Assembly: GCA_963082975.1 (NCBI GenBank)
Contig: OY720345.1
Coordinates: 15,774,491-15,838,490, forward strand
Origin: Labia minor
Taxonomy: Eukaryota > Arthropoda > Insecta > Dermaptera > Spongiphoridae
Reading direction: 5' to 3'
Length of the DNA: 64,000 bases
Shown here: positions 32,433 to 64,000 of the stretch, in pieces
Layout of the letters: every line of letters starts with the position of its first letter
How positions within the stretch are numbered: the first letter of the stretch is position 1
Notes under the pieces: generated by a model
Told to the model about the DNA's origin: nothing
Database searches by the model: none
Seen by the model: only the letters and a program-made list of their open reading frames with translations
Made by a program: the position numbers and the translations under genes

Positions 32433-49034
<16,602 letters not shown>

Positions 49035-60799: not shown

Positions 60800-60900
60800 A
60801 ATAAGTTGACCTGTGGCCAGGTCCGAACCGACCGACGGTTTGAAATAAATTAATTTCCAGCTACAGAAACAATTTCAAATAATTTTAATATATCTATTAA
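60800..60900 (-). mobile_element. Helentron-like short element, family A, cut by the gypsy LTR
   Basis: AATAAGTTGACCTGTGGCC, then GAACCGACCGACGG and the family body in reverse. It stops exactly where the LTR begins (ATTAA|TGTTG). The missing remainder should lie beyond the 3' LTR, outside the window. Confidence 0.8.
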
Positions 60901-61654
60901 TGTTGTAATATTTTAATTTATAAATATTTTTATATATTATATATAATATATAAAAATAAATATAAATCGATTTTTTAATTAATAATATTTCTAAAATAAT
61001 CGAGATTCGCAGAAGAGGGGAGTAAGGTGAACAAAGTACTTGAGGGGTCGATTGGTAGGTTCTGGGTGCGTGGAGGACATTCAAGAAGGAATCGTCTTGG
61101 TGTGCGGGCTTGCCTGTGAGTGTGACCCTTTTCCCTTCCCCGCTGCACGTCTGGCCTATACTCAGAGGAGTGCGTATATATATTTGGTTTAAAAGTGATT
61201 ATTTGTGAAGTGTTACAATAAAATTTATATTATTTATCAAACAATATTAAATTAAGTGTTAATTAGAATTTATATTTGTACTTATCAATTAATAAGTAAT
61301 ATAAATTCACAAGTTAAATAGTGTTAAGTGAAGATTAAAACTAAGTCAAGAAATCAAGTTAATTTGATTGGTGTTATAAATAAATAAGTTATTTTTATAG
61401 AATTAAACTATATTGTATTATATTAAGAGTAAATATTTATAGTTGTTAATTTTAGTAATATATTAGTTAATCAATTATTTGTATGTATAAAATATATTAA
61501 ATTAAGTGTATCATTTTAGTTATAAGGATTACAACTAAATGTTAATTTAAAATTTTATTAAATTTTTTATTATTAAATCAAATAATTTAATAATATGTAC
61601 ATTAATAAAAGTTAGTGGTGTCTTAATTTAACAACAATATTTTCCCACACTACA
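60901..61654 (+). repeat. Gypsy-class 5' LTR
   Basis: Starts TGTTGTAATATT and ends CCCACACTACA (TGT...ACA). A GC-richer core at about 61005-61165 is followed by GCGTATATATATTTGG (possible TATA) and AATAAA at 61218. The left border is set by the interrupted Helentron-like copy. The right border is set by the primer site and may be off by a base or two. Confidence 0.75.
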
Positions 61655-61656
61655 AA

Positions 61657-61674
61657 TGGTGTCAGAAGTGGGAT
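61657..61674 (+). other. Gypsy-class primer-binding site
   Basis: TGGTGTCAGAAGTGGGAT, beginning TGG a few bases after the LTR as a tRNA 3' end complement should. The tRNA was not identified. Confidence 0.6.
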
Positions 61675-61758
61675 CTTTGCAACAAGAAGTGTTAATAGAA
61701 CCCATCACAAAAAGTAAGTGCAATTAACTTTTATAACTTATTATACCATTAAATCACA

Positions 61759-62733
61759 ATGCCGCCAAAAGTTGACCCTGAAACAGTCTCGGATGTATTA
61801 AATGAATTGAAAGATCATCTTTCAAAAATAAGTATTCAATCAACTAGTACTATGTCTGCAGCTCCTGATTTGTCCCTACAAGCCCTCGTTCCATCTTGGT
61901 CCGGTTCATCCGAGTCAGAACCTATTGAGTCATTTTTATTAAACTTTGATAGAGTTGCACAGTTAGGTGGATGGTCAATAGTTCAAAAGAAGCTTATTCT
62001 TCTAATGAAATTGAAGGATAGAGCAGCTTTGGGTATTAAAGATGAATGGACATATGAGGAATTAAAACAAGAGTTAACTAAGAAATTTGAAAGACCTTCA
62101 ACTAAACTTTTATTGAAAAAGAAACTACTAAATCTATCACAAAACCCTGAGGAGAGTGTACGGGAGTTCGCAGATAGAATTATTAATGTTCAGAGTTTAG
62201 CATCCAAGGAAGGAGTAAAGGAAGATGAAACAACTATGTTAGAAATTTTTCTATTAGGTTTAAGAGGAAAATTAGGAGTGGAGGTTAGATGTAGTTCACC
62301 CACTACTTATGAAGAGGCGTTAGATAGAGCTATAAAAAGAGAGCGCGAATACAATGAAATTTCTCCTATAATGGGAGTAAGTGAAGCTTCTTATATAAAT
62401 GAGCAGCAATGTATTTGTTGTGGCTTGAAGGACCATTGGATGGCCGATTGCAAGAGCCCAGTTGCAGTTGCTTTGTTAAAAACAAATGAACTTAGCAATA
62501 ACTGCCAAGTTACGGGTTTATCATCAATAAGATGTTTCAATTGCAATCAGGAAGGCCATGTAGCAAGAAACTGTAATAAAAAAAAACAGGTTGTGAGCGA
62601 TAAGCAATGTTTTATATGTGGGAGCCCAAGACATTTAGCTAAAGAGTGTTCTCGTAGATTTGATAGAAATTCTAATCGCATCCCTCGAGGTACTAACAAT
62701 AACCAACGATACCCAAAAGATCAGGGTCGTTAG
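61759..62733 (+). CDS. Gag polyprotein, 324 codons, three zinc knuckles
   Basis: Structural protein that would package the element RNA into cytoplasmic particles. The N-terminal region (about 1-60) is polar. Residues 60-200 form a retrotransposon-Gag capsid domain with W..W-type wording (LVPSWSGSSESEPIESFLLN, LKDRAALGI, VREFADRI, MLEIFLLGLR). Three CCHC knuckles follow: CICCGLKDHWMADC at 218-231, CFNCNQEGHVARNC at 259-272 and CFICGSPRHLAKEC at 284-297. Three knuckles is more than the one or two usual in this class. It ends at TAG 62731-62733, just after a -1 frameshift site. The frame is intact and the start ATG is the first after the primer site. Confidence 0.93.
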   Translation: MPPKVDPETVSDVLNELKDHLSKISIQSTSTMSAAPDLSLQALVPSWSGSSESEPIESFLLNFDRVAQLGGWSIVQKKLILLMKLKDRAALGIKDEWTYEELKQELTKKFERPSTKLLLKKKLLNLSQNPEESVREFADRIINVQSLASKEGVKEDETTMLEIFLLGLRGKLGVEVRCSSPTTYEEALDRAIKREREYNEISPIMGVSEASYINEQQCICCGLKDHWMADCKSPVAVALLKTNELSNNCQVTGLSSIRCFNCNQEGHVARNCNKKKQVVSDKQCFICGSPRHLAKECSRRFDRNSNRIPRGTNNNQRYPKDQGR

Positions 62734-64000
62734 GATTCCCTGACCGAACGACCCAAAATAAAGAGAACAGTAGACGAGTTCCGTCTGTTCTGAAAGGGAA
62801 ACCTGCAGGGGTCATACTGACAATGTTATGCCAAGATAAAGCCTATCATTTATTGGTGGATACAGGAGCAGATATTTCTATATTAAAAACTCCCATTGCG
62901 GGGGTGAAAATTCATCAATCAAATATAAAAGCTAAAGGGGTTAGTGGAGAAGTATTAGTGGTTAGAGGAGAACAAAATGTATTAGGTAAGATAGATAATG
63001 TGGATATCGAACATAGATTTCTAATTGCATCTATAGAAACACAACATGATGGACTCGTTGGACTGGATTTCCTAGAAGCGGTAGGAGCTGTTATCGACTG
63101 CACTAACAGAGAAACCAAAATATCAAAAATAAAAACAAACCGTTCTCCTTATAACGAGACTGGGCAACAAGTATGTTTGATTGAAAAAGTAATTTTACCT
63201 CCTTGGAGTGAATTTGTTTGCTCCGGAAGGTTAACTAAGGGAAGGGGCAAGAATATTGCAGGTGACTATATTCTAGAGCCTCAAAACGAAACTCTTATTC
63301 CGATGAGAGTTGCACGGTCAGTAATCCGATTAAAGGATAATAAAATTCCAATCAAATTAATAAATACTAGTAATAGTAACATTACTCTCCCCCGAGGTAA
63401 AGTAATCGGAACACTTAGTAATATAGCCGAAACATTAAGCGATTTTGGACCTGGTGAAGAAGAAGAATATTTACAAAAGTTGCGACAGGGAATGAATAAA
63501 ATACATGAGGCAGTACTTAAACGTGAACAGAAGCAAAGAGAACGAAGAAACATATTAAGAAACAGAGGCAGAAAGGAAAGATCTTTTGTTAGAGGCGATT
63601 GGGTTTGGCTTTACGTTCCGTCTATTAAACCGTCAGAGGCAAAAAAATTTCGGAAACCCTGGAAAGGACCTTTTCAGGTAACAGAGAAATTGTCAGATCA
63701 AGTTTACGAAATAGAAACATCCCCAGATAATCGCTTAAGAGTTCACATCAACCGATTAAAACTCTCCACAATCAAGGGTAAATCTACTAGTCCGATTTCA
63801 GAGAAAAATGAAAACCTCTTTAGTCATCCGACTAATGAGCCTATTGGAGTCTGCATTGGTGCTGATTTGATTATGACCAAGGGCTTAGCTCTCGAAGTTA
63901 GAGAGAAGTTCAATGGATTAGACACTCTTAAAGCCAAACAACCCGAAGAGGGTAAAACCCTAAAATTAAATAGAGGAAGTAGAAAAATATACTACTTGGT
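62703..64000 (+). CDS. Pol-frame remnant: protease, integrase C-terminus, macro-like domain (partial at window edge)
   Basis: Open in the -1 frame from about 62703 to the last base, with no stop, reached by frameshifting from Gag. The aspartic protease has LLVDTGADISIL near 62853-62890 and GLDFLEAVGAVID near 63057. The linker that normally leads to reverse transcriptase follows (PRGKVIGTLSNIAE, to about 63428). RT, RNase H and integrase zinc and catalytic domains are missing. The text resumes at about 63450 with KLRQGMNKIHEAVLKRE, FVRGDWVWLYVP and KPWKGPFQV, the GPY/F-type integrase C-terminus, without loss of frame. After a short linker comes NLFSHP, then GVCIGADLIMTKGLALEVRE and IYYLV, matching the start of TARG1/OARD1-type macro domains. 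The stop is beyond the window. Confidence 0.85.
62712..62754 (+). promoter_or_regulatory. -1 ribosomal frameshift signal at the gag-pol junction
   Basis: The heptamer C CCA AAA (62712-62718) is in the Gag reading phase (X XXY YYZ form). After a 5 nt spacer, GGGTCGTT (62724-62731) can pair with AACGACCC (62747-62754) as a perfect 8 bp stem. A competing stem TCAGGG/CCCTGA also exists. The Pol frame is -1 to Gag and closed by stops before about 62703, so the shift must happen in this short overlap. Confidence 0.82.
63804..64000 (+). other. Macro-domain-like segment (TARG1/OARD1 type), N-terminal half
   Basis: About 65 residues are visible. NLFS.P begins the first strand as in TARG1-type domains (G.LF..P), then CIGADLIMTKGLALEVREKF corresponds to the ADP-ribose-binding loop and first helix (C.S.D..MG.GIA..FK.KFG). 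L.AKQPEEGK and RKIYYLV match the following strands. The catalytic lysine expected just after the YYL(I/V) strand lies outside the window. Alternative: a different ADP-ribose-binding macro subfamily. Confidence 0.75.

Follow-up and report, generated by a model that had tools for sequence, protein, structure and literature searches.

The last 3.1 kb of a 64-kb window of the Labia minor genome (contig OY720345.1; the window is the whole stretch of 64,000 nucleotides that was analysed) are the left part of a long terminal repeat (LTR) retroelement inserted at a duplicated 4-bp site, ATGT. This locus raises the question of whether a gypsy-class element carries a TARG1/OARD1-type macro domain in its Pol frame, and what such a domain would do there. 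The fusion was claimed in a first-pass annotation from a frame that runs off the window edge, and it is confirmed here. The same fusion recurs in at least five element families, is restricted among the scored matches to one reverse transcriptase (RT) clade, keeps the positions of the TARG1 catalytic dyad, and has moved recently. On sequence grounds, we rate the chances as about even that these elements are a young Ty3/gypsy clade with a captured TARG1/ALC1-like macro domain in Pol, possibly an ADP-ribose eraser that opposes host restriction.

Identity of the Macro Domain

Homology to macro domains starts at approximately position 63813 with the residues NLFSHP, and the window edge falls after approximately 62 of the 133 residues of the domain. 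The 65 window residues alone matched the TARG1/OARD1 chains with an E value of 4.6e-6. The contig stretch C2:15836001-15845999 (locus L009) was used beyond the edge. A stop or unrelated sequence directly after position 64000 had been named as the outcome that would speak against the fusion; the frame instead remains open to L009:3313 (window coordinate 64823), and the macro domain is completed. The completed domain matched TARG1/OARD1 over residues 5-135 with an E value of 2.2e-17, and the eight matches obtained up to an E value of 1 contained no solved macro domain besides TARG1.

The macro domain of family C, defined below, matched TARG1 with an E value of 1.6e-19. A profile built from five families matched TARG1 at 1.6e-35, and the next chain was 5m31 at 5.6e-13. 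The label of 5m31 is Appr-1-p processing domain protein, which we take to be DarG. The match to TARG1 spans the whole domain and is closer than the match to other solved macro domains. When the domain of a family A copy (L022) was aligned with the TARG1-like gene of the host (L045, C2:49.80 Mb), a score of 180 was obtained; the best of 2000 shuffles reached 53, and 0/2000 reached 180. Pfam PF01661 was above its cut-off on family B (E 6e-9) and family C (E 1.3e-6).

Recurrence and Clade Restriction

Macro queries from families A and C identified at least 119 macro places in the 604-Mb genome, so that the further copies suggested as a check on the fusion are abundant. At least 25 of these belong to family A (the family of the window copy), 31 to B, 59 to C, one to D, and one to F, and two are decayed or partial. 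The counts are lower bounds; only the best candidates were scored, and split copies were counted once. Two exons of the host TARG1 gene (C2:49803561 and C2:49803925), two 22-residue family C fragments (C2:51601117 and C5:37698955), and a weak match (C2:71977424) were left out. The identity of the domain is 21-42% between the five families and 26-39% among A, B, and C.

The RT of family A was used as the query in a second search, in which the best 150 of 1419 candidates were scored. A macro place was located downstream (0.5-7 kb, same strand) in 106/107 of the scored matches with RT identities of at least 59% and in 0/43 of those with identities of at most 50%. The sole match of at least 59% identity without a macro place is C10:23540129 (59%, 328-aa frame). 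This pairing covers the macro places that can be found with the A and C queries; a very diverged macro domain could escape it. The RT identities are 60% for A-B, 60% for A-C, and 68% for B-C, with 34-38% to L046. When the copy ends were read by eye, no macro-like frame was present behind the integrase of L046 and L048-L051. In L052 (RT identity 47%) the integrase likewise has no macro domain after it; all that follows is a basic RGRPKKK tail. From the 106/107 and 0/43 counts and the macro-less ends of the other copies, the macro domain is the mark of one gypsy clade, in which it lies behind the integrase C-terminal domain. Scans of viral and prokaryotic contig collections returned no relatives of the domain, a result with little bearing on other animals.

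The tails that follow the macro domain end alike in families A and C (GRPPKRKIFNFHKRK and GRPKKRTIWNFHKKK), with a GRPxKRxIxNFHKRK-like end. Since the integrase of the macro-less relative L052 (L052:3-635, + strand) also ends in a basic tail, the AT-hook-like tail may be older than the macro insertion.

Catalytic Positions

The five-family alignment contains eight invariant columns, and two of these align with Lys84 and residue 125 of human TARG1, as counted along the aligned human row. The two positions are K68 and D109 of alignment A2 and are invariant in 5/5 families. Lys84 and residue 125 are described as the catalytic dyad of TARG1 in a passage of PMC7050489, where residue 125 is named Glu125; it is Asp in the aligned human row. 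The same source states that TARG1 also removes ADP-ribose from the ends of nucleic acids. As reported in part of PMC8501950, active TARG1 and DarG strip ADP-ribose from DNA, and the K84A variant of TARG1 and the K80A variant of DarG did not rescue cells from the DNA-modifying DarT. The dyad positions are absent from the 15 variable macro codons of 12 family A copies.

The glycine-rich PRxGCG loop is important for macrodomain hydrolases. It is kept as PRxGCGxD in families B and C and altered in D (GCRRD) and F (TRLGCGQD); family A is considered with the proposed role below. From these sequences we infer a hydrolase function for the macro domains of the elements.

The Window Copy

The whole window copy is 4732 bp long, including both LTRs and the contig sequence past the edge. 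Its features, together with the macro places of the rarer families, are presented in Table 1.

Table 1. Coordinates of the window copy (window numbering) and of further macro places in the genome
Feature	Position	Strand	Basis or remark
Target-site duplication (TSD) ATGT, left copy	60900..60903	.	right ATGT after 3' LTR in L009
5' LTR, 751 bp, TGTAAT...ACTACA	60904..61654	+	751/751 bp identical to 3' LTR at L009:3375-4125
Probable primer-binding site TGGTGTCAGAAGTGGGATC	61657..61675	+	inferred from sequence and position after 5' LTR
gag, Retrotrans_gag and CCHC zinc knuckles	61759..62733	+	open reading frame (ORF); Pfam on the corresponding frame of L022 (family A)
Pol-like frame, -1 relative to gag, 706 aa	62703..64000, onward to 64823	+	ORF and contig beyond edge
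Slippery heptamer CCCAAAA in gag frame, candidate -1 shift into pol	62712..62718	+	sequence alone
Aspartic protease, weak	62832..63092	+	RVP E 6.3e-4, gag-asp_proteas E 2.7e-4; below Pfam cut-off in family A
Join of 2355-bp deletion, 10-bp microhomology AGAAGAAGAA	63458..63467	+	comparison with family A copies
Integrase C-terminal domain, KPWKGPF, GPY/F-like	63666..63761	+	PF22938 E 4.2e-10
TARG1-like macro domain, N-terminal part	63813..64000	+	TARG1/OARD1 match; domain runs on to about 64211
Acidic linker, then basic GRPPKRK tail	after about 64211, to 64823	+	contig translation
Family D macro place	C10:8881012		
Family F macro place	C1:112428075		
Decayed or partial macro places	C1:71058890, C4:41012768		

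Full-length copies of family A show the Ty3/gypsy order gag-protease-RT-RNase H-integrase between TG...CA LTRs, as determined by Pfam on L022. In the pol of this copy, RT and RNase H come first, then the zinc finger, core, and C-terminal domain of integrase, and after these the macro domain. In 12/20 further family A copies, the macro domain lies in frame within a pol of 1490 or 1491 aa, and on this count frame decay was rejected as the origin of the fusion. The window copy lacks 2355 bp in frame. Its RT, its RNase H, and most of its integrase (core included) are gone, and the protease and the integrase C-terminus are therefore adjacent in one frame. The missing stretch lay between two 10-bp AGAAGAAGAA repeats, and a jump of the reverse transcriptase between templates is a likely cause. 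The join is private to this copy: of 40 genome matches to a 130-bp join sequence, only the window's own spans it, and a non-autonomous subfamily sharing the deletion was accordingly rejected. The frame had been described as intact in the first-pass annotation; it is indeed open through the window edge, but RT, RNase H, and the integrase core are missing from the element. This copy inserted recently and is not an intact element. A second family A copy, L027:4939-8136, is also strongly shortened, with 3198 bp between the LTR ends, the TSD ATAA, and a broken 5' LTR end; internal deletion is thus not unique to the window copy.

The CCCAAAA heptamer is also present in L022 of family A and in L043 of family C, and GGGAAAC is present in L042 of family B. 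The gag-pol overlap of L042 (2927-2936) contains AAAGGGA and GGGAAAC instead of CCCAAAA. The fold of the stretch 3' of the slippery site is unremarkable (z -1.61), with 12/200 shuffles folding equally well. The protease match to RVP is above the Pfam cut-off in families B and C. In family A the 3' LTR starts within 65 bp of the end of pol, which leaves no room for an envelope (env) gene. Elsewhere in the window, a 1251-aa open frame at 34236-37991 (+ strand) resembles a Ty1/copia gag-pol, with CCHC, integrase, and RT motifs recognized by eye in the translation.

Age, Mobility, and Selection

LTR pairs were obtained from 16 of 21 family A copies; L026, L030, L035, L037, and L038 provided no usable pair, and L027 was counted despite its broken 5' LTR end. 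Twelve of the 16 pairs are without substitution, three have one, and that of L027 has five. Perfect 4-bp TSDs flank 15/16 of the pairs. In family B, a single copy (L042) was examined; its 292-bp LTRs are identical, and its TSD is CAAG. In family C, likewise for one copy (L043), the 503 bp of the LTR that lie inside the locus are identical, and the far end is outside the locus. The family A insertions and the examined B copy are very recent. At L036, the right flank of the 3' LTR begins with AAATGGTG, which resembles the start of the primer-binding region, and no TSD is found there; this copy is perhaps a tandem or circle-derived insertion.

Family A contains two subfamilies, A1 (eight copies) and A2 (four copies). 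The ratio of nonsynonymous to synonymous changes (pN/pS) between them is 0.28 for the macro domain; RT has 0.12, RNase H 0.06, and the tail 0.25. The synonymous divergence between A1 and A2 (L022-L040) is 0.04-0.06 from approximately the integrase C-terminus onward and approximately 0.016-0.018 in the protease and RT. Because it is higher in the 3' third of pol than in these upstream regions, A1 and A2 are suggested to be mosaic subfamilies formed by recombination.

An Envelope-Bearing Branch

A separate 612-aa frame for a Baculo_F env (PF12259, E 4.1e-28) follows pol in family C at L043:7493-9328 (+ strand). Such an env lies beside 59/59 of the family C macro places. Conversely, 59/63 of the Baculo_F places in the genome (merged from 116 matches) adjoin a counted family C macro domain; of the other four, C2:51601761 adjoins one of the fragments left out of the macro count. 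The gag of family C has two zf-CCHC stretches (E 1.9e-11), and its integrase carries the GPY/F-like motif KPWKGPY. Errantiviruses, the insect gypsy elements with an F-type env, are described in a passage of PMC2577118 as having gag without CCHC knuckles and integrase without GPY/F. Since both features are present here, family C is set apart from the errantiviruses and looks like a separate env-bearing, virus-like branch.

Origin of the Domain

The closest solved relative of the element domains is animal TARG1, and the domain probably came from an animal TARG1 gene, most likely through a single capture that predates the divergence of A from B and C. Two or more separate captures by related elements, with A apart from B, C, D, and F, appear improbable. 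An unrooted macro tree of eight rows speaks for them, as it groups A with host and human TARG1 (98/97) opposite B, C, D, and F. The same tree rooted on TARG1 nevertheless agrees with the RT topology (A,(B,C)) and with one early capture, the tree containing no outgroup beyond TARG1. The shared insertion place behind the integrase C-terminus and the similar tail ends of A and C also argue against separate events.

Proposed Role and Alternatives

In the Pol of this clade, the probably captured macro domain follows the C-terminal domain of integrase, and in A and C the basic tail comes next. The domain may be released with or beside integrase and may travel in the pre-integration complex. In B and C, and perhaps in D and F before their decay, it would strip host-placed ADP-ribose from the integrase of the element, from other proteins of the complex, or from the ends of cDNA or RNA. 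Such removal would oppose an ADP-ribosylation-based restriction by the host. In family A, without the glycine-rich loop, the domain may bind or act differently, or its activity may be on the way out. PARP-domain matches lie at five places of the host genome, some with stops inside the matched stretch. A possible role against PARP-type defence, as initially put forward for the window copy, is better supported by B and C than by its own family. The full proposal, in which a working ADP-ribosyl hydrolase in the integrase polyprotein of this clade, env-bearing branch included, clears the pre-integration complex or its nucleic acid of host ADP-ribosylation, is advanced tentatively and falls somewhat short of an even chance.

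Several observations weigh against erasure. In family A the PRxGCG loop is lost, SKEDLV or SKKDLV taking its place, with SKKDLV for PRIGCG in the window's family, and the activity of this macro domain is doubtful because of that replacement; the Lys/Asp dyad positions are kept. PF01661 is silent on the macro domain of the window copy and family A, the significant match of this copy being to TARG1, and family D matches PF01661 only below the cut-off (the scan covered A, B, C, and D). Families D and F are represented by one copy each, decayed or frame-shifted. Inside A1 the macro pN/pS is 0.55, with very few changes, and the 15 variable codons of family A contain nine nonsynonymous and seven synonymous changes (p 0.06 against neutrality). 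The placement of A beside TARG1 in the unrooted tree belongs here as well. Function is more strongly supported by the open frames and dyad positions that persist from family to family.

The chief rival is that the domain reads ADP-ribose instead of removing it. It would then tether integrase, either to chromatin that is ADP-ribosylated or to the poly-ADP-ribose of damaged or open DNA, and so pick integration sites, as the chromodomain at the integrase C-terminus of chromoviruses does. The place of the macro domain directly behind the integrase C-terminal domain is that of this chromodomain (as described in part of PMC3605345), family A retains the domain despite the lost loop, and a basic GRP tail follows it in A and C and is also present in the macro-less L052. 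By analogy, targeting of this kind would be conceivable, yet we consider it unlikely: the invariant Lys and Asp positions are not obviously needed for binding alone, and the TSDs and 8-bp flanks of family A, the insertion-site sequence covered, look simply AT-rich. Less probable still is a passenger, a piece of host TARG1 that entered Pol in a single capture and is carried along there with no selected function. The lost loop of family A, the weak constraint inside A1, and the decay of the D and F copies would all be expected of it; the macro frame is nevertheless open in the long Pol of A, B, and C at only 26-39% identity, the catalytic positions are invariant, and pN/pS is 0.28 between A1 and A2. 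For an assembly chimera or chance similarity, nothing speaks except that the domain sits at the edge of the window. This reading was rejected as extremely improbable, given the at least 119 places, the recurrence of the family A organization with different TSDs, and the failure of any of the 2000 shuffles to reach the observed score.

Relation to Known Systems

The element domain resembles TARG1/OARD1, of the ALC1-like class, in that approximately 133 residues align end to end and the positions of Lys84 and residue 125 are kept in five families. The resemblance extends to the PRxGCGxD loop in B and C but not to the loops of A, D, and F. TARG1/OARD1 is a free-standing enzyme, whereas the element domain, a putative hydrolase, is a module of a retroelement polyprotein. 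The DarG macrodomain antitoxin, presumably 5m31 and then the second-best solved relative, has an equivalent catalytic lysine and acts on ADP-ribosylated DNA (PMC8501950, in part). It differs in its bacterial toxin-antitoxin setting, and its similarity is far weaker than that of TARG1.

Macro domains occur in several RNA viruses. Among retroelements, the nearest precedent in the papers listed is that fish epsilon-like endogenous retroviruses carry ORFs for macro domain proteins, according to a passage of PMC4977317 that cites Basta et al. 2009. By that description, on which the comparison is based, the macro domains of these vertebrate elements are additional ORFs, whereas the domain here lies inside a Ty3/gypsy Pol. 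Chromoviruses are similar in having an extra chromatin-related domain at the same place behind integrase, although that domain is a chromodomain; none was detected there by Pfam in the scanned frames of A, B, and C. Errantiviruses share with family C an env ORF after pol and differ from it in gag and integrase as given above, and they differ from family A, which has no room for env. Among the matches listed in open PubMed Central full texts, no macro domain in a gypsy Pol was found; the matching passages of PMC11642819 and PMC2825203 are unrelated. The element type itself is known, and a macro domain behind integrase in a gypsy Pol appears to be new.

In mammals, a link between ADP-ribosylation and the silencing of retrotransposons is known from SIRT6, which modifies KAP1 at L1 (PMC4695847, in part). 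If the proposed erasure is correct, it would be a counter-defence new for gypsy elements and would provide evidence that animals restrict retroelements via ADP-ribosylation. A young gypsy clade with a TARG1-like domain makes testable both the ADP-ribosylation of retroelement complexes or nucleic acids by the host and its removal by the elements. Natural comparisons are at hand in the gypsy families of this genome that lack the domain and in family A, whose loop is altered.
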